From Sphaerisporangium corydalis (GTDB lineage Bacteria; Actinomycetota; Actinomycetes; Streptosporangiales; Streptosporangiaceae): a stretch of DNA of 64,000 nucleotides. The notes under the pieces are model-generated. The model saw only the letters and a program-made list of their open reading frames with translations, was not told the DNA's origin and made no database searches. Every line of letters begins with the position of its first letter. Within the stretch, counting starts at the first letter, position 1. A program made the position numbers and the translations under genes. Of this stretch, positions 48,591-59,789 are shown one piece after another. The stretch is from NCBI RefSeq assembly GCF_025506355.1, contig NZ_JANZYP010000018.1, forward strand, positions 62,001 to 126,000. The letters run 5' to 3'.

Positions 48591-49663
48591 GCACCACCGA
48601 CGAAACCGACACCGCGCCCGCCACCCCCTCCCCCTCTCATCCGGGCGAGGGCCCGCCCGGTGGTGGACCGGGGTTTCGGGTGCGGTGGGGGCCGGTCGTG
48701 GGGTTGGTCGGGGCGGCGTTGCTGGCCGTGGTGGTGGCGAGCTGGTGGACCTCGCCGGGGGCGGTCCCGGGGATCGCGGTCCCGGGGCCGGTCATCGAGT
48801 ACGGGCTGCCGGTGGTCCGCCTGGTCCTCGACCTGTGCGCGCTGGCGACCGTCGGGCTCAGCCTGCTGCCCCGGTTCCTCGGGTTCGACGACCCCCTGCG
48901 CACGGAAACGGTCCTCGCCAGGGCCCGGAGCTGGGCGGTGTTCACGGCGTTCGGCTGGGCGATCGCCGCCCTGGTCGCGATGGTCATGAGCGCCGCCGAG
49001 ATCACCCCCGGAAGGGCGCCGGACCCGGCGGCGTACGTCAGCGTGATCGGCGCCGGGCAGGGCCTGGTGATCAGCGCGGCGTGCGCGCTCGTCTACACGT
49101 TCTTCGGGCTGCTGGCCGTCCGCTTCGGCGAGAAGGTGCCCGCCGAGCTGCGCGTGATCGTGGCCCTGTTCGGCCTGCTGCCGCTGCCGGTCAGCGGGCA
49201 CGCCTCGAACTGGTACTGGCACGACCTGAGCATGGTCTCCATGGAGCTGCACGTCATCGCCGCGTCGGTGTGGACCGGCGGGCTGGTGGCGCTGGCCGTG
49301 CTGCTGACCCGCGACCGCGATCTGCTGGCCCGCGCGCTGCCGAGGTTCTCCCGGCTGGCGACCGTCGCCCTGGTCGTGGTCGGCCTCTCCGGGCTGTTCA
49401 ACGGCCTGATCGAGCTGGTCCTGTCCCCGACCACCAGCCTGCCAGGGTCGCTGTTCACCACGCGTTACGGGCAGCTCGTCGTCGCCAAGATCGTCTTCGT
49501 CTGCGTGGTGGCGGTGCTCGGCGCCAACATCCGCTGGCGCCTGCTGCCGGGCATAGCGCGCCAAAAGACCACCGCGTTCGCCGCCTGGGCCGCGCTGGAG
49601 ATCAGCGTGATGGGCCTGGCGTACGGCGTCGCGGTCGCCCTGACCCGCGCCCCCGTCGCCTAG
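48587..49663 (+). CDS. CopD-family copper import membrane protein
   Basis: 358 residues from an ATG overlapping the CopC stop. A 25-residue polar head is followed by eight or nine membrane segments. Conserved features are LPLPVSGHASNWYWHDLSMVSMELHVIAASVWTGGLVAL, with several histidines, and a C-terminal pair of segments with TRYGQLVVAKIV. CopD proteins move copper across the membrane, working with CopC. Many actinobacteria carry a fused CopCD; here the two are separate but coupled. The stop overlaps the stop of the convergent gene by 4 nt. Confidence 0.86.
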   Translation: MSTTDETDTAPATPSPSHPGEGPPGGGPGFRVRWGPVVGLVGAALLAVVVASWWTSPGAVPGIAVPGPVIEYGLPVVRLVLDLCALATVGLSLLPRFLGFDDPLRTETVLARARSWAVFTAFGWAIAALVAMVMSAAEITPGRAPDPAAYVSVIGAGQGLVISAACALVYTFFGLLAVRFGEKVPAELRVIVALFGLLPLPVSGHASNWYWHDLSMVSMELHVIAASVWTGGLVALAVLLTRDRDLLARALPRFSRLATVALVVVGLSGLFNGLIELVLSPTTSLPGSLFTTRYGQLVVAKIVFVCVVAVLGANIRWRLLPGIARQKTTAFAAWAALEISVMGLAYGVAVALTRAPVA

Positions 49664-50811
49664 GGGGTGACGGGGGCGCCCAGGGTCAGCGAGCCGGGCG
49701 ACTCGCGCGGGCGCCTGCGGCCGTACCATTCCAGGCCGAACCACGCGGCGCCGAGCAGGACGGCGGACACCGGCGCGGAGGCGAGCAGGTAGGGCGGTGC
49801 CTCCAGCAGCCGGTCCTGCACCGCGAGCCCGCCGTACACGGCGGCGGTGACCAGGACGGTCCCGAGCGCGGCGCGGGCGAACGGCATCCGGACCAGGAAC
49901 GCCACGTCGACGCAGACGGCGGCGCCGATCAGGAAGAACGGGACCGCCGACGGCGGGAAGCCGGCGACGACGAGCAGCGGCCAGATGGCGGCCCGGTAGG
50001 CGACGTACACGGCGGCCACCGCCGTGGCGGCCCACCTGCGCCCGATCAGGTTACGCGCCACGACCAGCACGATCACCGCGGCGATGCCGAACCACATGGG
50101 GTACACCCATTCGGGGACGGGCAGCGAGAACTTCGCCACCATGACCCGGTCGACCTGGCGGCCCATCTGCTCGGCCGCGAAGTTGATCAGGGTGGGCTCG
50201 GCGTACGGCTGCCCCCGGTCCCAGGAGGCGAGCTCCAGCACGCCGTACTCCTGGTGCTCGCTGGGGAAAAGGGTGTTCTCCATGCAGAAGACGAAGAGCG
50301 CGCCGAGGACGACCGCGCGCCGGCCGCCCATGGGCGAGCAGACGTACCACCCCCGGATCACCCCGGCGATCATGAACGCCGTGCCGACGTACAGCAGCAT
50401 GTGGGAGGGGCTCCACGAGGTGATGTCGACCCCGTTCACCCGGTGGTTGATCAGGTCGATCGGGACGGCGATCAGGAAAGCGCCGGTCCCCCACTGGATC
50501 AGCCGCAGCGCAATGCGGTCCACGCCGTACCCGGTGTAGCTGTGGGTGATCACCAGGGCGACCACGATGGCCGTGCCGGCGCTGTTGAGCAGGTGAGGCG
50601 GCGCGAGATCGTCGCGCAGCCACTTGAAGTGCCAGGAGACGTCCCAGGAGGCGCCGAGCACCTTCAGGACGAACGCGGCGATCCACCCGGCGTACAGGAC
50701 ACGCAGCAGGTCAGGTGGGGTCTCCCGCCCCGCCTCTCCCCTCGTCCAGTAGGGGAGGGCCCACTCGGCGGCACGAGTGGCCTTGACCTTGATACCTGCG
50801 CCTGACGTCAC
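49660..50811 (-). CDS. Histidine-rich polytopic membrane protein of unknown function
   Basis: 383 residues with about nine membrane segments and no family I recognise. Histidines cluster in or beside membrane segments: SWDVSWHFKWLRDDLAPPHLL, ALVITHSYTGYG, DLINHRVNG, SWSPSHMLLYVG and FPSEHQEYG. The spacing resembles intramembrane metal or haem ligands. It is convergent with CopD, ending 4 nt inside it, and the location beside CopC/CopD makes a copper- or other metal-linked role plausible. It has no signal peptide and no soluble domain. An oxidase-like or desaturase-like membrane enzyme is one possibility; it is not supported beyond the His pattern. Confidence 0.65.
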   Translation of the reverse strand: MTSGAGIKVKATRAAEWALPYWTRGEAGRETPPDLLRVLYAGWIAAFVLKVLGASWDVSWHFKWLRDDLAPPHLLNSAGTAIVVALVITHSYTGYGVDRIALRLIQWGTGAFLIAVPIDLINHRVNGVDITSWSPSHMLLYVGTAFMIAGVIRGWYVCSPMGGRRAVVLGALFVFCMENTLFPSEHQEYGVLELASWDRGQPYAEPTLINFAAEQMGRQVDRVMVAKFSLPVPEWVYPMWFGIAAVIVLVVARNLIGRRWAATAVAAVYVAYRAAIWPLLVVAGFPPSAVPFFLIGAAVCVDVAFLVRMPFARAALGTVLVTAAVYGGLAVQDRLLEAPPYLLASAPVSAVLLGAAWFGLEWYGRRRPRESPGSLTLGAPVTP

Positions 50812-50931: not shown

Positions 50932-53553
50932 ATGAAGCTTGCGGGGAGGCGGCCGGTGGCGTTGACCGTCGCGGTGCTACTGGCGGTCGGCGCGGCGGTG
51001 TGGGCCCTGTGGCCGTCGCCCCCGCCGATGCGAGGGCTCGATCTGCGGATCCCCGTCGTCGACGGGCCCGCAGGCGACCAGCGCGTGACCCTGGACGCCA
51101 GCTTCTTCCCGCCCGCCGGGGGCGGGAAGGCGCCCGCCATCCTGCTGGCCCACGGCTTCGGCGGCAGCAAGCGGAGCATGCGCGACCAGGCCGTGCTGCT
51201 GGCCCAGGAGGGGTACGCGGTGCTGACCTGGTCGGCCCGGGGTTTCGGCGCCTCCACCGGGCAGATCGCCCTGAACTCCCCCGACTACGAGGTCAAGGAC
51301 GTCCAGCAGCTCATCGACTGGCTGGCCCGGCGGCCCGAGGTGCTGCTGGACGCCGCGGGCGACCCCCGTCTCGGCGTCGCCGGCGGCTCGTACGGCGGGG
51401 CGATCAGCCTGATGTCGGCCGCCTACGACCCGAGGATCGACGCGATCGTCCCGCAGATCACCTGGTACGACCTGGCGGACGCGCTGTTCCCCGACGCCAC
51501 GGGCGCGGGCCCGGAGCAGGGCGTGTTCAAGCGCATGTGGGCCGGGCTGTTCTTCAGCAGCGCGATCGACTCTCCGCAGTCGGGCGGCCTCGGAGGCCTC
51601 GCCGGGGCCACCGGCGGAACCGGCGCGGGAGCGGCGGGGGCGGACGGCGGCGGCTCCGGGCAGCCGGCCGGGCCCGGCGACGGCACCCCGCCGGCCGGCA
51701 CGGCGAACCCGGCGGCCCAAGCGCAGGACGTCCAGTGCGGGCGCTTCCTCCCGGCGATCTGCGAGATGTACCAGCAGGTCGCGAAGACCGGCCGCGCCAC
51801 CCCCGAAGCCGTCCAGATGCTGCGCAGGTCGAGCCCGGTGTCGATGCCCGGTAAGATCCGCGTGCCGACCCTGCTGATTCAGGGCAAGCGCGACTCGCTG
51901 TTCCCGCTCGGCCAGGCCGACGCCAACGCGCGGGCCATCGCCGCGACCGGCGCCCCCGTCCAGGTCGCCTGGTTCGACGGCGGCCACGACGGCGGCGACG
52001 GCGAGGTCGACTGGGTGACCGGGAGCACCCTCGACTGGTTCGGCCGCTGGCTCAAGAAGGACGGCGCGCCGCCCGGAGACGTCTTCACCGTCACCCGCGA
52101 CGGCGGGCGCGACCCGGGCACCCGCCGCCCGGTCCTGGTCCACGCCGGCACCGGCGCCTACCCCGGCCTGGCGGGCACCACGCAGGCGGCCATCACGATC
52201 AGCGGTCCTGACCAGCAGGTGGCCGGCCCGCCCGGCGGCTCGCCCGCCGCGATCTCCACGGTGCCGGGCGTCGGCTCCCTGCTCAACGGCCTCGGCGGGG
52301 CCGGGCTGGCGATCGACATGCCGGGGCAGAGCGCCGCGTTCGAGAGCGGGCCGCTGGCCGCGCCGCTGGCGGTGACCGGCTCGCCGACGGTGCGGGTCCG
52401 CGTGCACGGCACGGGCGAGGTGACCCTGTTCGCCAAGCTGTACGACGTGGGCGGCCAGCGCCCGGCCCTGCCGCAGGGCCTGGTGGCGCCGGTCCGGGTC
52501 ACCGCCACCGAGCAGGGCACCACCGCCGCGATCACGCTCCCGGCGATCGACTACCGCTTCGACGCCGGGCACCGGCTGCGGCTCGTGCTGAGCACCACCG
52601 ACATGGGGTTCGCCTCCCCGGCCGAGCCGTCGGTCCACCGCGTCGGCCTGGCGTCGCAGACGATCACCGTGCCGACGGACGCCGCGCTGACGGCCGCAGG
52701 GCCGGGCCTCGCGTGGTGGACCTGGGCGATGCCGCTGGCCGCGCTCGCTGTCGCGACCGCCCTGCTGCTGATCGGCCGCGCCCGCCGGCCCGACGAGCCC
52801 GACCCGGAGCTGGCCGGGGTCCCGCTGCAGATCACCGGCCTGACCAAGAGGTACCGCAACGGGGAACTGGCCGTGGACGACCTGTCGTTCCGGGTGGAGC
52901 AGGGCCAGGTACTCGGGCTGCTCGGGCCGAACGGCGCGGGCAAGACGACCACCATGCGGATGCTGATGGGCCTGATCCGCCCGGACGCCGGCGAGATCCG
53001 GATCTTCGGGCACCGCGTGACGCCCGGCGCCCCGGTGCTGTCGCGGCTCGGGTCGTTCGTCGAGGGGCCGGGCTTCCTGCCCCACCTGTCCGGGCGGGAG
53101 AACCTCGACCTGTACTGGCGGGTGACCGGGCGGCCGGGGGACGACGCGCACATGGAGGAGGCGCTGGAGATCGCCGGCCTCGGCGCCGCGCTCGACCGGG
53201 CGGTGCGCACGTACTCCCAGGGGATGCGGCAGCGCCTCGCCATCGCCCAGGCCATGCTCGGCCTGCCCGACCTGCTGGTGCTCGACGAGCCCACCAACGG
53301 CCTCGACCCGCCGCAGATCGCCGAGATGCGCGGGGTGCTGATCCGCTACGCCGCCCAGGGCCGCACGGTGATCGTGTCCAGCCACATGCTCGCCGAGGTG
53401 GAGCAGACCTGCGACCACGTCGTGATGATGCACCGGGGCCGCCTGGTCACCGCCGGCCCGGTCAGCGACCTGCTCGGGACGGCGGTGTCGTCCAACGGCT
53501 CGAAGGGACGTCTCGAGGACGTCTTCCTGGACCTGATCGGGGACTCGCGATGA
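50932..53553 (+). CDS. Fusion of membrane-anchored S15-type alpha/beta hydrolase and ABC transporter ATPase
   Basis: 873 residues. A signal anchor is at about 7-28. An alpha/beta hydrolase follows at 35-380 with HGFGG, nucleophile Ser153 (GGSYGG), Asp321 (KRDSLF) and His352 (GGHDGG). A Gly/Ala-rich insertion (about 216-265) lies within it, and a PepX_C-like beta domain (about 400-580) behind it. A second membrane segment (about 593-615) leads to a cytoplasmic ABC ATPase: Walker A GPNGAGKT (665-672), signature YSQGMRQR, Walker B LLVLDEPTNGLD and switch His SSHMLAEV. The topology places hydrolase outside and ATPase inside. The permease gene at 53636 completes the transporter. Substrate and role are unknown; export coupled to cleavage, or a signal-gated pump, are options. 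Confidence 0.85.
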   Translation: MKLAGRRPVALTVAVLLAVGAAVWALWPSPPPMRGLDLRIPVVDGPAGDQRVTLDASFFPPAGGGKAPAILLAHGFGGSKRSMRDQAVLLAQEGYAVLTWSARGFGASTGQIALNSPDYEVKDVQQLIDWLARRPEVLLDAAGDPRLGVAGGSYGGAISLMSAAYDPRIDAIVPQITWYDLADALFPDATGAGPEQGVFKRMWAGLFFSSAIDSPQSGGLGGLAGATGGTGAGAAGADGGGSGQPAGPGDGTPPAGTANPAAQAQDVQCGRFLPAICEMYQQVAKTGRATPEAVQMLRRSSPVSMPGKIRVPTLLIQGKRDSLFPLGQADANARAIAATGAPVQVAWFDGGHDGGDGEVDWVTGSTLDWFGRWLKKDGAPPGDVFTVTRDGGRDPGTRRPVLVHAGTGAYPGLAGTTQAAITISGPDQQVAGPPGGSPAAISTVPGVGSLLNGLGGAGLAIDMPGQSAAFESGPLAAPLAVTGSPTVRVRVHGTGEVTLFAKLYDVGGQRPALPQGLVAPVRVTATEQGTTAAITLPAIDYRFDAGHRLRLVLSTTDMGFASPAEPSVHRVGLASQTITVPTDAALTAAGPGLAWWTWAMPLAALAVATALLLIGRARRPDEPDPELAGVPLQITGLTKRYRNGELAVDDLSFRVEQGQVLGLLGPNGAGKTTTMRMLMGLIRPDAGEIRIFGHRVTPGAPVLSRLGSFVEGPGFLPHLSGRENLDLYWRVTGRPGDDAHMEEALEIAGLGAALDRAVRTYSQGMRQRLAIAQAMLGLPDLLVLDEPTNGLDPPQIAEMRGVLIRYAAQGRTVIVSSHMLAEVEQTCDHVVMMHRGRLVTAGPVSDLLGTAVSSNGSKGRLEDVFLDLIGDSR

Positions 53554-53683
53554 CCACGGCCTACGCACCGCGTCACACGCTGCCGTCGCGGGTGGAGCTT
53601 GGGGACGTATTTCTGGACCTGATCGGGGACTCGCGATGACCACGGCCTACGCACCGCGTCGCACGCTGCCGTTGCGGGTGGAG
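53518..53683. repeat. 80-bp tandem duplication across the ATPase-permease junction
   Basis: 53518-53597 and 53604-53683 match at 76 of 80 positions, with a period of 86 nt. Each copy contains the end of the ATPase gene, the ATGA stop/start overlap and the first codons of the permease gene. Confidence 0.95.
53550..53639 (+). CDS. Chimeric 29-residue mini-ORF between fusion ATPase and permease
   Basis: ATG at 53550 overlaps the ATPase stop, and TGA at 53637-53639 overlaps the permease ATG. The first 16 residues match the permease N-terminus (MTTAYAPRHTLPSRVE against MTTAYAPRRTLPLRVE) and the last 12 the ATPase C-terminus (DVFLDLIGDSR). It is a by-product of the junction duplication and keeps both 4-nt overlaps, so ribosomes could pass ATPase to mini-ORF to permease. 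A peptide function is unlikely but untested. Confidence 0.5.
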   Translation: MTTAYAPRHTLPSRVELGDVFLDLIGDSR

Positions 53684-54472
53684 ATCGTGCGGCAGTTCAA
53701 GCGGCGCCGCACGCTGGTGATGTTCGGGCTGCTGCTGGCGCTGCCGTGGATCCTGGTGGTGGCGTTCTCCCTGGGTCCCGCCCCGGCGCAGCAGAACTCG
53801 CTGCGGATCTCCGACCTCGCCACCCAGGGCGGTCTCAACTTCGCCGCGTTCACGCTGTCGGTGTCGGCGACGCTCCTGCTGGTCGTGGCGGTGGCGCTGT
53901 TCTGCGGGGACACCGTCGCCAGCGAGGCGAACTGGTCCTCGCTGCGTTACCTTCTGGCGGCGCCGGTGCCCCGCGACCGGCTCCTGCGGCAGAAACTGGT
54001 GGTCGCCCTCGGGTACTCGGCGGCGGCGGTGATCGCGCTCCCGCTGATGGCGCTGCTCGCGGGCACGGTGGCGTTCGGCTGGAACGACGTCCGCCTGCCG
54101 GGCTCCGGCGAGACCATCTCCGCCTCCGCCGTGCTGCCCCGGTTCGCGATCGTGATCGGGTACGCCCTGGTGAGCCAGCTCGTGGTGGCGGCCCTGGCGT
54201 TCCTGCTGTCGGTGAGCACCGACTCGCCGCTCGGCGCGGTCGGCGGGGCGGTCGGGCTGGTCATCGTGAGCAACATCCTGCAGGCGGTGGAGGCCCTGGG
54301 GTCGATACGCGAGTTCCTGCCGACCTTCTGGAACACCGCCTGGCTGGACGCGCTCGTCCCCGCCCTCGACTGGAGCGGAATGATCAAAGGCGCCGCCCTG
54401 TCGGTCACCTACGCCGCGATCCTCCTCGCCCTGGCCTTCCGCCGCTTCCGCAAAAAAGACATCGTCTCCTAA
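53636..54472 (+). CDS. ABC-2 type permease paired with the hydrolase-ATPase fusion
   Basis: 278 residues from the second copy of the ATGA overlap. Six membrane segments follow a short basic head (RQFKRRRTLVMFGLLLALPWILVVAFSLG). Typical ABC-2 features are SEANWSSLRYLLAAPVPRDRLLRQKLVVALGYSAAAV, which corresponds to the coupling helix region, and a C-terminal YAAILLALAFRRFRKKDI. It should form the membrane channel as a dimer, driven by the ATPase half of the preceding protein. The transported compound is unknown. Confidence 0.86.
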   Translation: MTTAYAPRRTLPLRVEIVRQFKRRRTLVMFGLLLALPWILVVAFSLGPAPAQQNSLRISDLATQGGLNFAAFTLSVSATLLLVVAVALFCGDTVASEANWSSLRYLLAAPVPRDRLLRQKLVVALGYSAAAVIALPLMALLAGTVAFGWNDVRLPGSGETISASAVLPRFAIVIGYALVSQLVVAALAFLLSVSTDSPLGAVGGAVGLVIVSNILQAVEALGSIREFLPTFWNTAWLDALVPALDWSGMIKGAALSVTYAAILLALAFRRFRKKDIVS

Positions 54473-56294: not shown

Positions 56295-56507
56295 GGCACA
56301 ATGCTACGCGCCCGCTGAAGTGCGCGGTCATCCGTTCCCACAAGGGCCCCATTTCCCCCTAACTGGAATTACGGCCACGATTCTCAGAAAAGCCACTTAT
56401 AAACCCGCATTTCGGGCGTACATCCGTGGCACAAGGACAGCTAACGCCTCGCACAGGTACGATGCGGAATCAGGTAGCACGCCGGAACGACCCCCGTGAG
56501 GCGGCCC

Positions 56508-58622
56508 ATGTCAACGCCCGCCGGATGGCGAAGAGAGGGAAATCTCCCCGCCGAGCTCACCAGCTTCGTGGGGCGAGATCGGCTGCTCGCCACCATCAGG
56601 CAACGCCTGCAGGACTCCCGCCTGGTCACCGTGACGGGCATCGGCGGCGTCGGCAAGTCCCGCACGGCCCTGCGCATCGCCCACCAGGTCACCTCCCAGT
56701 TCCCCGACGGGGTCTGGTACGTCGACCTGTCCCGCCTGCAGGACCCGACCATGGTCCAGCACTCCGTCAACGCCGCGTTCGGCATCGCCGACCAGTCGGC
56801 GCGCCCCGAGGCCGAGACGCTCGCCCAGTGGCTCGGCCCGCGCACCGTCCTGCTGGTGATCGACTCCTGCGAGCACCTCCTCGACTCCGTCGCGACGCTG
56901 GTGGACCAGCTCCTGCGCAGCGCCCCGCACGCCCACGTGCTGGCGACCAGCCGGCAGTCCCTCGGCGTCCAGGGTGAGCAGACGATCCCGGTCTCCCCCC
57001 TGCTGGTGCCCGGCGACGACCTCGCCGAGAGCCCGTTCGTGAACGAGTCGGTCCAGCTCTTCGCCGAGCGCGCCTCCGCGGTCGTCCCTGGCTTCTCGGT
57101 CGACGAGGACAACATCGACGCGGTCTCGGAGCTGTGCCGGCGGCTCGACGGCATCCCGCTGGCCATCGAATTGGCCTCGGTCCGGCTGCGTGCGCTGTCG
57201 GTGGAGCAGATCCTGGCCCTGCTGACCGACCGCTTCAGCCTGCTGGCGGGCGCCAGCCGTACGGCGCTGCCCCGCCACCAGACCCTGCGGGCGGCCATCG
57301 GCTGGAGCCACGAGCTGTGCGAGCCCGCCGAGCGGCTGCTGTGGGCCCGGCTGTCGATCTTCTCGGGTGACTTCGAGCTGGAGGCCGCCCGGTACGTGTG
57401 CGCCAGCCAGGACCTGCCCGCCGAGAACGTCATGGAGCTCGTCGTCGGCCTGGTGGAGAAGTCCATCCTGCTGAGCAGCAACGACCGTGCCGGGGTGCGC
57501 TACAAGCTGATCGACACCCTGCGCCACTACGGCAGGGAGTGGCTGGACAAGCTGGAGGAGACCGACTGGGTCCGGCGCCGCCATCGCGACTACTACCTGC
57601 AGCTCGCCGAGCGGGGCGAGCACGCCTGGTCGGGGCCGAGGCAGGTCTACTGGTTCGGGCGCATGCGCCAGGAGCACGACAACATCCGGGCCGCGCTCGA
57701 CTACTGCCTGAACGACAACCGCGAGGCGCGCACGGGGCTGGAGCTGCTGTCCTGCCTGTGGTTCATGTGGGTCGCCTGCGGGTTCGCCCGGGAGGGCCGC
57801 CTCTACCTCGAACGGGCGCTGCTCGCGTGCACCCAGCCCAGCAAGGAACGCTGCAAGGCCCTGTGGGTGCTGGCCTACGTCCGCAGCGCCCAGGGCGACA
57901 CGACCGGCGCGCTGGAGGCGGCGGACGCGTGCGCCACCGACGCGGTCCGCGTCGGCGACTCGATCGCGGTCATCCTGGCGACCAAGATGCAGGGGACCGC
58001 CGCGTTCCTCCAGGGCGACCTGCACAAGGCGACCGCCCTGCTCGGCGTGGCGATCGAGTTCCACCGCAGCGGGCGCGAGCTCAACCCCGGGCTGCTGCCG
58101 GCGATCGTCGAGCTCGCGGTGGTGCTCACCCAGCAGGACGAGCTGAGCGAGGCCGAGTCGCTGCTGCGCGACTGCCGCCAGCTCTGCACCGAGCGCGGGG
58201 AGCTGTGGCTGCGCTCCTACGCCGTGTGGGCCACCTCCGCGATCGAGCGGATGACCGGCCGCACGGCGGACGCGGTGCTGAGCGCGCAGGAGTCCCTGCG
58301 GATCAAGCGGCACTTCCACGACGTGCTCGGGGCCGTCCTGGCGATGGAGACGCTGTCCCAGCTCGCCGTCGAGCAGGGCGACGCGGCGCGTGCGGCGCGC
58401 ATCCTCGGGGCGGCGCAGGCGAACTGGCAGCTCTTCGGGCTGCCGAGGTTCGGCTCGCCGTTCTTCGGCACCGAGCACGAGCGGTGCGTCAAGGAGTGCA
58501 AGCGGATGCTCGGCGAGGAGCCGTACCTCACCGCCTACCAGCAGGGCTCCAAGATGAACTTCGAGGAGGCCGTCAGCTACACCATGGGCGAGATCGACCC
58601 GAGCCAGGCCCCCGCCCCCTGA
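56508..58622 (+). CDS. AfsR-like STAND/NB-ARC ATPase with TPR tail, no DNA-binding domain
   Basis: 704 residues from an ATG 4 nt after GAGGCGG (a GTG at 56496 is possible). The NTPase part starts LPAELTSFVGRDRLLATI; Walker A is GIGGVGKS, Walker B VLLVIDSCEHLL, and the sensor segment RLDGIPLAIELAS. A winged helix (about 270-350) and tetratricopeptide-like helices (about 380-690) follow. Regulators of this group normally carry an N-terminal SARP or C-terminal LuxR DNA-binding domain; neither is present. It may act by sequestering or assembling with a partner. It points toward a terpene synthase gene on the opposite strand 105 nt away. Confidence 0.8.
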   Translation: MSTPAGWRREGNLPAELTSFVGRDRLLATIRQRLQDSRLVTVTGIGGVGKSRTALRIAHQVTSQFPDGVWYVDLSRLQDPTMVQHSVNAAFGIADQSARPEAETLAQWLGPRTVLLVIDSCEHLLDSVATLVDQLLRSAPHAHVLATSRQSLGVQGEQTIPVSPLLVPGDDLAESPFVNESVQLFAERASAVVPGFSVDEDNIDAVSELCRRLDGIPLAIELASVRLRALSVEQILALLTDRFSLLAGASRTALPRHQTLRAAIGWSHELCEPAERLLWARLSIFSGDFELEAARYVCASQDLPAENVMELVVGLVEKSILLSSNDRAGVRYKLIDTLRHYGREWLDKLEETDWVRRRHRDYYLQLAERGEHAWSGPRQVYWFGRMRQEHDNIRAALDYCLNDNREARTGLELLSCLWFMWVACGFAREGRLYLERALLACTQPSKERCKALWVLAYVRSAQGDTTGALEAADACATDAVRVGDSIAVILATKMQGTAAFLQGDLHKATALLGVAIEFHRSGRELNPGLLPAIVELAVVLTQQDELSEAESLLRDCRQLCTERGELWLRSYAVWATSAIERMTGRTADAVLSAQESLRIKRHFHDVLGAVLAMETLSQLAVEQGDAARAARILGAAQANWQLFGLPRFGSPFFGTEHERCVKECKRMLGEEPYLTAYQQGSKMNFEEAVSYTMGEIDPSQAPAP

Positions 58623-58727: not shown

Positions 58728-59723
58728 TCAGTTCCCGCCGGCGCCGGGTGACGGCGCGCTCTGCCAGGCCCGGGTGTACCGCGTGCTGGTGAGGGAGTAG
58801 GCGATGCTCCCGCTGATCCAGTGTTCGAGGCCCCGGATGTAGGCGGCGACGGCGCCGGAGGCGAGGACCTCCAGCTCCGAGCGCAGCACCAGGAACCGCA
58901 GGATCGCCTCGTCGCGCATCTTGCCGATCTGGTTCATGGCGTGCTGGATCGACCGGTGCCGGTGCCGGGCGAGCACGCTGACCAGGTTGTTGCGCGAGTT
59001 GACCCCCGAGCGCTCCTTGGCGTACGAGAGCAGGTCGTTGTCCCAGACCACCACGTCGTTGGAGCTCTCGGTGATCGCCCGCACGTCGTGGTGGCGCCAC
59101 TCGCCGGGGGTCAGGGGATGGCCGGTGGCCACGTCGATCAGGGCGAAGACCGTCAGCATGGCCCCGGTCCTGCGCCGCATGAAGATGTAGTCGCCGTAGG
59201 TGGGCACCACGGCGTCCTCGCGGTTGGCGGCCTCCCACACCTGCGCGAACAGGTAGTCCTTGGTGACCGAGCACCAGCGGTCGAGCTGGTCGGCGTTCGC
59301 GACCGCGCCGACCCGGCCCTTGATGTCGAGCATCGCCCGTGCGAAGGGGTTCTCCACGTGGGCCCCGTCCGCGCGGCCGTCGAGGTCGTCGAGGACGGTG
59401 AGCAGTTGCGGCAGTGCGCGGGCGATCTCCGCGGCGCGGCGGTCGGACTCGCAGAACGCGTCGTCGAAGGCGAAGAGCCACACGCACCAGTCGGTCACCA
59501 GGCGCAGCATCTCGTGCCCGGCGTAGGGGTAGGTGCGGGCGCCCAGATCGCCGTAGCCGGCCTCTCTGTAGCGTTCCAGCTCGGCCGGGTCGTCGATCAT
59601 GCGGCTCGCCACCAGCCAGGAGAAGGTCTCCGTGTTGACCTGGTCCGCGTACGGGCTGATCAGGCTGGGGAACGGACACGACAAAGGTGGGAGAATAAGC
59701 CTGGAAGGCGCTAAATCAGCCAT
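58728..59723 (-). CDS. Class I terpene synthase
   Basis: 331 residues from the ATG at 59723 (a GTG two codons upstream is the alternative). The metal-binding motifs are intact: DDAFCE (about 87-92) as the Asp-rich motif and NDLLSYAKE (about 229-237) as the NSE triad, with a C-terminal STRYTR supplying the Arg-Tyr pair that senses diphosphate. It is a single domain, unlike geosmin synthase. It should ionise and cyclise a prenyl diphosphate, most likely farnesyl diphosphate, to an unknown hydrocarbon or alcohol. No cytochrome P450 or prenyltransferase gene is adjacent. Confidence 0.86.
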   Translation of the reverse strand: MADLAPSRLILPPLSCPFPSLISPYADQVNTETFSWLVASRMIDDPAELERYREAGYGDLGARTYPYAGHEMLRLVTDWCVWLFAFDDAFCESDRRAAEIARALPQLLTVLDDLDGRADGAHVENPFARAMLDIKGRVGAVANADQLDRWCSVTKDYLFAQVWEAANREDAVVPTYGDYIFMRRRTGAMLTVFALIDVATGHPLTPGEWRHHDVRAITESSNDVVVWDNDLLSYAKERSGVNSRNNLVSVLARHRHRSIQHAMNQIGKMRDEAILRFLVLRSELEVLASGAVAAYIRGLEHWISGSIAYSLTSTRYTRAWQSAPSPGAGGN

Positions 59724-59789
59724 CTCCACATCATCGCAACAAAAACCCCCCGTAACTACATGGCAAAATCTACGGATTCAGCGGCCCGT

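Follow-up and report, generated by a model that had tools for sequence, protein, structure and literature searches.

In peptidase-containing ABC transporters (PCATs; ABC, ATP-binding cassette), a peptidase-like domain and an ABC ATPase are carried by one chain. NosD, by comparison, serves copper-site assembly and is not an enzyme of the type considered here. For YbbAP-TesA of Escherichia coli, structures and assays have led to the proposal that hydrophobic membrane compounds are extracted and passed to an attached periplasmic esterase (PMC12646458). The present analysis concerns a two-gene locus at positions 50932-54472 of a 64,000-nucleotide stretch of the Sphaerisporangium corydalis genome (GCF_025506355.1, contig NZ_JANZYP010000018.1, positions 62,001 to 126,000; hereafter the window), in which an 873-residue protein fuses an alpha/beta hydrolase to an ABC ATPase and is followed by a permease gene. 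The operon, of just two genes, is retained throughout a phylum in which antibiotic producers abound. The original prediction had recognised each part but no characterised system of this build, and no paper on the fusion and no characterised example were found in searches of an open-access library; the NCBI annotation of a Tsukamurella relative reads merely "alpha/beta fold hydrolase" beside "ABC transporter permease". The fusion system is widespread in actinobacteria and apparently uncharacterised. We tentatively favour a reading in which the permease would present the ATPase-borne ecto-hydrolase with a hydrophobic ester or acyl substrate from the membrane, and the hydrolase would cleave it outside the cell.

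A conserved hydrolase-ATPase fusion beside its permease

The fusion gene (50932-53553; ATG start) lies on the + strand, like every feature of the two genes described below, and was delineated from its open reading frame, Pfam matches, an AlphaFold2 model and homologous loci. Three Pfam matches, all above the curated cut-off, were obtained along the protein: Peptidase_S15 at residues 52-325 (75.7 bits), PepX_C at 460-576 (40.2 bits) and ABC_tran at 649-789 (107.8 bits). An N-terminal membrane helix (residues 7-25; 50950-51006), assigned as a signal anchor from hydropathy, the model and homologue N-termini, precedes an alpha/beta hydrolase core of about residues 36-375 (51037-52056), which was identified by the S15 match and by structural matches to PaL and CocE. 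Model and alignment place a variable Gly/Pro-rich insert within this core (residues 204-268; 51541-51735), mostly disordered in the model and ranging from 10 to 136 aa among homologues. A PepX_C-like beta (jelly-roll) domain (residues 385-582; 52084-52677), supported by the Pfam match and the modelled strands, follows, so that hydrolase and jelly roll together make up residues 36-582. A second membrane helix (residues 595-615; 52714-52776), evident from hydropathy, model and alignment, leads to the ATPase domain (residues 632-870; 52825-53541). Hydropathy marked hydrophobic stretches at about 9-27 and at about 597-615, in agreement with the helices at 7-25 and 595-615 in the single-chain AlphaFold2 model (predicted local distance difference test, pLDDT, 85; predicted template-modelling score, pTM, 0.68); both analyses bracket the hydrolase/PepX_C part and leave the ATPase after the second helix. 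The next gene (53636-54472) encodes a 278-aa NosY/PmtD-like ABC-2 permease matching Pfam ABC2_membrane_2 and ABC2_membrane_4. The originally predicted order of anchor, hydrolase, PepX_C-like domain, second membrane segment and ATPase in one protein, with the permease next, is therefore borne out.

The fusion with its adjacent permease was present in all 114 full-length loci examined, the window included, spanning Streptosporangiales, Streptomyces-like genomes, a Tsukamurella plasmid, other actinobacterial classes and streamlined 1.3-Mb genomes. All 11 genus genomes searched contained a full-length relative, one of them broken across two contig ends. Of the 80 named loci, 76 contained an intact single-frame fusion with the permease directly downstream, as did 16 distant loci; the other 4 named loci represent contig ends or an apparent frameshift. 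A further 20 genome loci and one Tsukamurella plasmid showed the same arrangement. In Acrocarpospora catenulata (L115:169-3262), the fusion gene lies in two frames, reflecting a frameshift or a sequencing error. Both genes also occur in single-contig (complete) genomes of about 1.34 Mb, and retention in genomes of this size class points to a core role in the envelope. A class-wide sample of 395 genomes yielded 115 with a hydrolase match at E <= 1e-30, mostly within open frames at least about 790 aa long. As the same fusion and permease recurred in every intact homologous locus, 114 separate loci sharing one build, a chance fusion or assembly artefact was ruled out.

Catalytic residues were equally conserved. 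Ser153 in GGSYGG (51388-51390), Asp321 (51892-51894) and His352 (51985-51987) were invariant in a first alignment (93/93) and in the larger set (114/114), which upholds the predicted intact triad. In the ATPase, or nucleotide-binding domain (NBD), of NosF-like fold, the Walker A (GPNGAGKTT), signature (YSQGM) and Walker B (LLVLDEP) motifs and the H-loop His818 were complete, with K671, S762, G764, D785, E786 and H818 each found in 114/114, and both halves of the fusion thus look functional from their sequences. When 39 fused hydrolase domains were placed in a tree with 23 standalone ones, they made up one clade (support 100/99; all 200 bootstraps), establishing a single origin as far as sequence can; the more distant standalone relatives are separate proteins without this transporter beside them. 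No member of the clade has separate halves or has lost the triad, contrary to the two outcomes that the original prediction had named as counting against it. Fusion, motifs, operon and conservation are all established at the sequence level.

Identity and sidedness of the hydrolase

The nearest fold to the hydrolase part was the lipase PaL (Z 32, 445 residues aligned, 24% identity), also its top sequence match, followed by cocaine esterase CocE (Z 27) and, slightly lower, X-Pro dipeptidyl aminopeptidase (Z 26). The protein had been described as S15-type, and this label holds for the S15 core, the PepX_C domain and the Ser-Asp-His triad, but the ordinary X-Pro peptidase activity that it suggests is doubtful. 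The Tyr of the RxPY motif of canonical S15 enzymes, which in CocE is the oxyanion-hole residue Tyr44, is replaced here by His-Gly-Phe (HGF; His74 in 112/114, Phe76 in 93/93), whereas a comparison S15 protein from the same genome retains canonical RSPY. The X-Pro peptidase label was downgraded on this account, and the enzyme is more likely to act as an esterase or lipase.

The hydrolase very probably lies outside the cytoplasm and the ATPase within it, as originally predicted, because four sequence features point the same way. Basic residues occupy the inner flank of both helices, with K/R preceding the N-terminal one and conserved Arg616 and Arg618 following the second on what would be the inner side. 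Several homologue lineages replace the signal anchor with a signal-peptide-like, apparently cleavable, or lipobox-like N-terminus. Cys269 and Cys277 (51736-51762) are each present in 112/114 sequences at a constant spacing, fitting a probable disulfide outside the cell. Finally, unfused relatives of the hydrolase include secreted proteins. One secreted unfused relative (L153:4310-7270) has a long C-terminal region with apparent CWB2-like cell-wall repeats in the place of the ATPase. In 90% of sequences, 16-20 residues lie between the beta domain and Trp598, which must keep the enzyme close to the membrane at its outer surface, and Trp596, Trp598, Arg616 and Arg618 are conserved at the borders of the helix at 595-615. 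Overall, the evidence argues strongly for this topology, for the enzyme fold and for the transporter type.

Transporter half and proposed mechanism

The transporter half is NosFY/PmtCD-like. The AlphaFold2 model of the permease (pLDDT 84) had NosY and then PmtCD as its nearest PDB folds and was entirely helical except for a short hairpin, lacking any large extracytoplasmic domain, and the ATPase matched the TM0544, ABCA and NosF types. Together with the complete NBD motifs, an adjacent ABC-2-type permease in all full-length loci fits an ABC transporter. Within its own genome, the permease had exactly one other relative (E 4e-24); of the more than 150 ATPases encoded there, the one closest to the ATPase of the fusion (53%, against 47% for the next) lies beside that relative. 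This sister ABC operon (L183:3018-6266; G000 contig C88), situated beside a divergent two-component system, opens with an exported LolA/RseB-like protein upstream of the ATPase and permease in 9/9 genus loci read; therefore, the sister transporter also appears to have an extracytoplasmic partner, of a lipid-carrier-like kind. A 727-aa ABC frame that resembled a second fusion was rejected, being an ordinary ATPase overlapping a LolA-like gene. Assignment to a defence system was likewise rejected, the PADLOC matches being partial and confined to the ATPase domain.

In the arrangement we envisage, the two genes would encode an ABC complex in which the ATPase subunit brings along an enzyme outside the cell, and each transporter would be assembled from two copies of the fusion protein and two of the permease. 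An NBD dimer would lie inside and a NosY-type permease dimer in the membrane. The outer face would bear two hydrolases with their PepX_C-like domains, one on either side, and a single helix reached via a short linker would hold each of them near the exit. Driven by ATP, the permease would extract a hydrophobic compound of ester or acyl type from the membrane, or flip it, and present it to the Ser-Asp-His site for hydrolysis outside. Here we infer the stoichiometry, the direction, a lipophilic ester substrate and the coupling of ATP turnover to hydrolysis.

Five points weigh against this reading. The single-chain AlphaFold2 model carries no information on hydrolase-permease packing, and we know of no substrate, activity or phenotype for the fusion system. 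The PepX_C and S15 matches leave room for amidase or peptidase activity, the LolA/RseB likeness in the sister operon is sub-threshold (NCBIfam LolA E 7e-5 to 1.5e-3; Pfam 0.002), and no lipid gene was found among the conserved neighbours.

The alternative that survives best, albeit unlikely, is export-coupled processing, in which the transporter would export a molecule from the cytoplasm, for instance a peptide, with or without an acyl group, or a secondary metabolite, and a group would be trimmed off by the ecto-hydrolase during its emergence. The short linker would place the hydrolase at the exit, the permease fold is near that of the PmtCD peptide exporter, and among named exporters the NBD scored best against the lantibiotic-protection and daunorubicin-resistance subfamilies, far below the cut-off; however, no biosynthetic or precursor gene is conserved alongside beyond family-level synteny, and occurrence in streamlined 1.3-Mb genomes would be surprising for a dedicated metabolite exporter. 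The original suggestion that a substrate is cut as it leaves is possible in this form, but a membrane-borne hydrophobic substrate is more likely in view of the LolA/RseB-like sister operon and of YbbAP-TesA, the best precedent.

Mechanical control without transport is slightly less likely still. ATP binding would here move the helix between NBD and hydrolase and so switch the ecto-enzyme on or off, comparable to the control of cell-wall amidases by FtsEX via EnvC. A single chain does hold both NBD and hydrolase, most members having short linkers around the one helix that connects them, and the conserved Trp and Arg residues at the helix borders would suit such a role; yet the ABC-2/NosY permease lacks the large periplasmic domain of FtsX/MacB-type proteins, so that the known type VII route is absent, and the linker from the second helix to the NBD reaches 176 residues in some homologues, which is poor for rigid transmission. 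Detoxification, in which toxic esters or antibiotics would be pumped out and then broken down outside by the attached hydrolase, is very improbable: cocaine esterase and alpha-amino acid ester hydrolase are indeed among the S15-fold relatives in the PDB, but single origin and family-level synteny differ from the patchiness typical of resistance genes, there is no conserved regulator alongside, and the system is rare on plasmids (2 of 72,556 records), a plasmid search having recovered fused forms only in Nonomuraea and Tsukamurella.

Neighbouring genes and comparison with known systems

In this strain, an 86-nt tandem duplication, not mentioned in the original prediction, spans the fusion/permease junction (53512-53683); it was not seen in the other junctions read. 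The copies are 93% identical with 6 differences, and thus do not represent a simple assembly stutter. The duplication yields a 29-codon mini-ORF (open reading frame; 53550-53639), whose start overlaps the fusion stop and whose stop overlaps the permease start (ATGA); because of these overlaps at both ends, translational coupling may be preserved through the mini-ORF.

In Streptosporangiaceae, CopC, CopD and an unannotated membrane protein adjoin the fusion unit, often together with a STAND-type regulator and a terpene synthase, whereas the permease is the sole neighbour kept in other lineages. In the window, the membrane protein (49663-50811, - strand) is polytopic, lies beside CopC/CopD, has no Pfam match and has relatives in 65 of the homologous loci, and the recurrent Streptosporangiaceae neighbours are a STAND/TPR regulator-like protein (TPR, tetratricopeptide repeat; 56496-58619; 51 loci) and a terpene synthase (58731-59729; 38 loci). 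Three small genomes (L214:6208-7314, L215:9661-10767, L216:2333-3457) encode an exported copper type II monooxygenase-like protein divergently adjoining the fusion (Pfam run on L214 and L216), and L214 has a DUF305 protein just downstream as well. The CopC/CopD neighbours, the copper monooxygenase-like and DUF305 genes that some small genomes carry nearby, and the copper-site role of NosFY all point toward copper; nevertheless, only the permease is conserved outside Streptosporangiaceae and some small genomes, the CopC/CopD neighbourhood is taken as family-level synteny, and a copper link was rejected. An antibiotic cluster was also rejected, as the biosynthetic neighbours are not conserved outside one family.

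Compared with described systems, the fusion differs from PCATs, in which a cytosolic N-terminal C39 cysteine protease is attached to a transporter with its own membrane domain; Pfam gave no C39 match on the fusion protein, which instead has a serine alpha/beta hydrolase behind an N-terminal membrane segment. It shares core, PepX_C domain and Ser-Asp-His triad with S15 enzymes (X-Pro dipeptidyl aminopeptidase, CocE, alpha-amino acid ester hydrolase) but departs from them in HGF for the RxPY Tyr, in being membrane-bound and in its attached ATPase, a domain also lacking in PaL (PDB 8YZN/8YZO), the closest relative of the hydrolase part in sequence and fold. NosDFY offers the nearest solved permease fold, an NBD about 38-40% identical in the structural match and an extracytoplasmic partner protein, which is not fused.

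YbbAP-TesA likewise pairs an ABC transporter with an extracytoplasmic ester hydrolase, a topology that is inferred for the present system, and in both the active site would be supplied from the side of the membrane. Its type VII, FtsX/MacB-type permease has a large periplasmic domain and its TesA is a separate protein of TesA fold, whereas here a 278-aa ABC2_membrane protein accompanies an S15-like alpha/beta hydrolase with PepX_C, covalently fused to the ATPase. We propose that both would follow the same working principle, which would have arisen independently here on another transporter type and been fused through the membrane. A further, more doubtful possibility is that the ATPase chain itself spans the membrane carrying the enzyme it powers, with ATP turnover inside directly gating an outer lipid- or ester-cleaving site. 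The system would then be a YbbAP-TesA counterpart in a single chain, with one origin early in Actinomycetota and retention down to 1.3-Mb genomes. The coupling is directly testable, because the covalent link puts both activities on one mutant chain. If the proposal is correct, a general envelope task may be indicated, namely drawing acylated molecules from the membrane to destroy or recycle them, and the coupling of an ABC transporter to an outside hydrolase would have evolved at least twice, once on the type VII transporter of YbbAP-TesA and once on the ABC-2 type described here.

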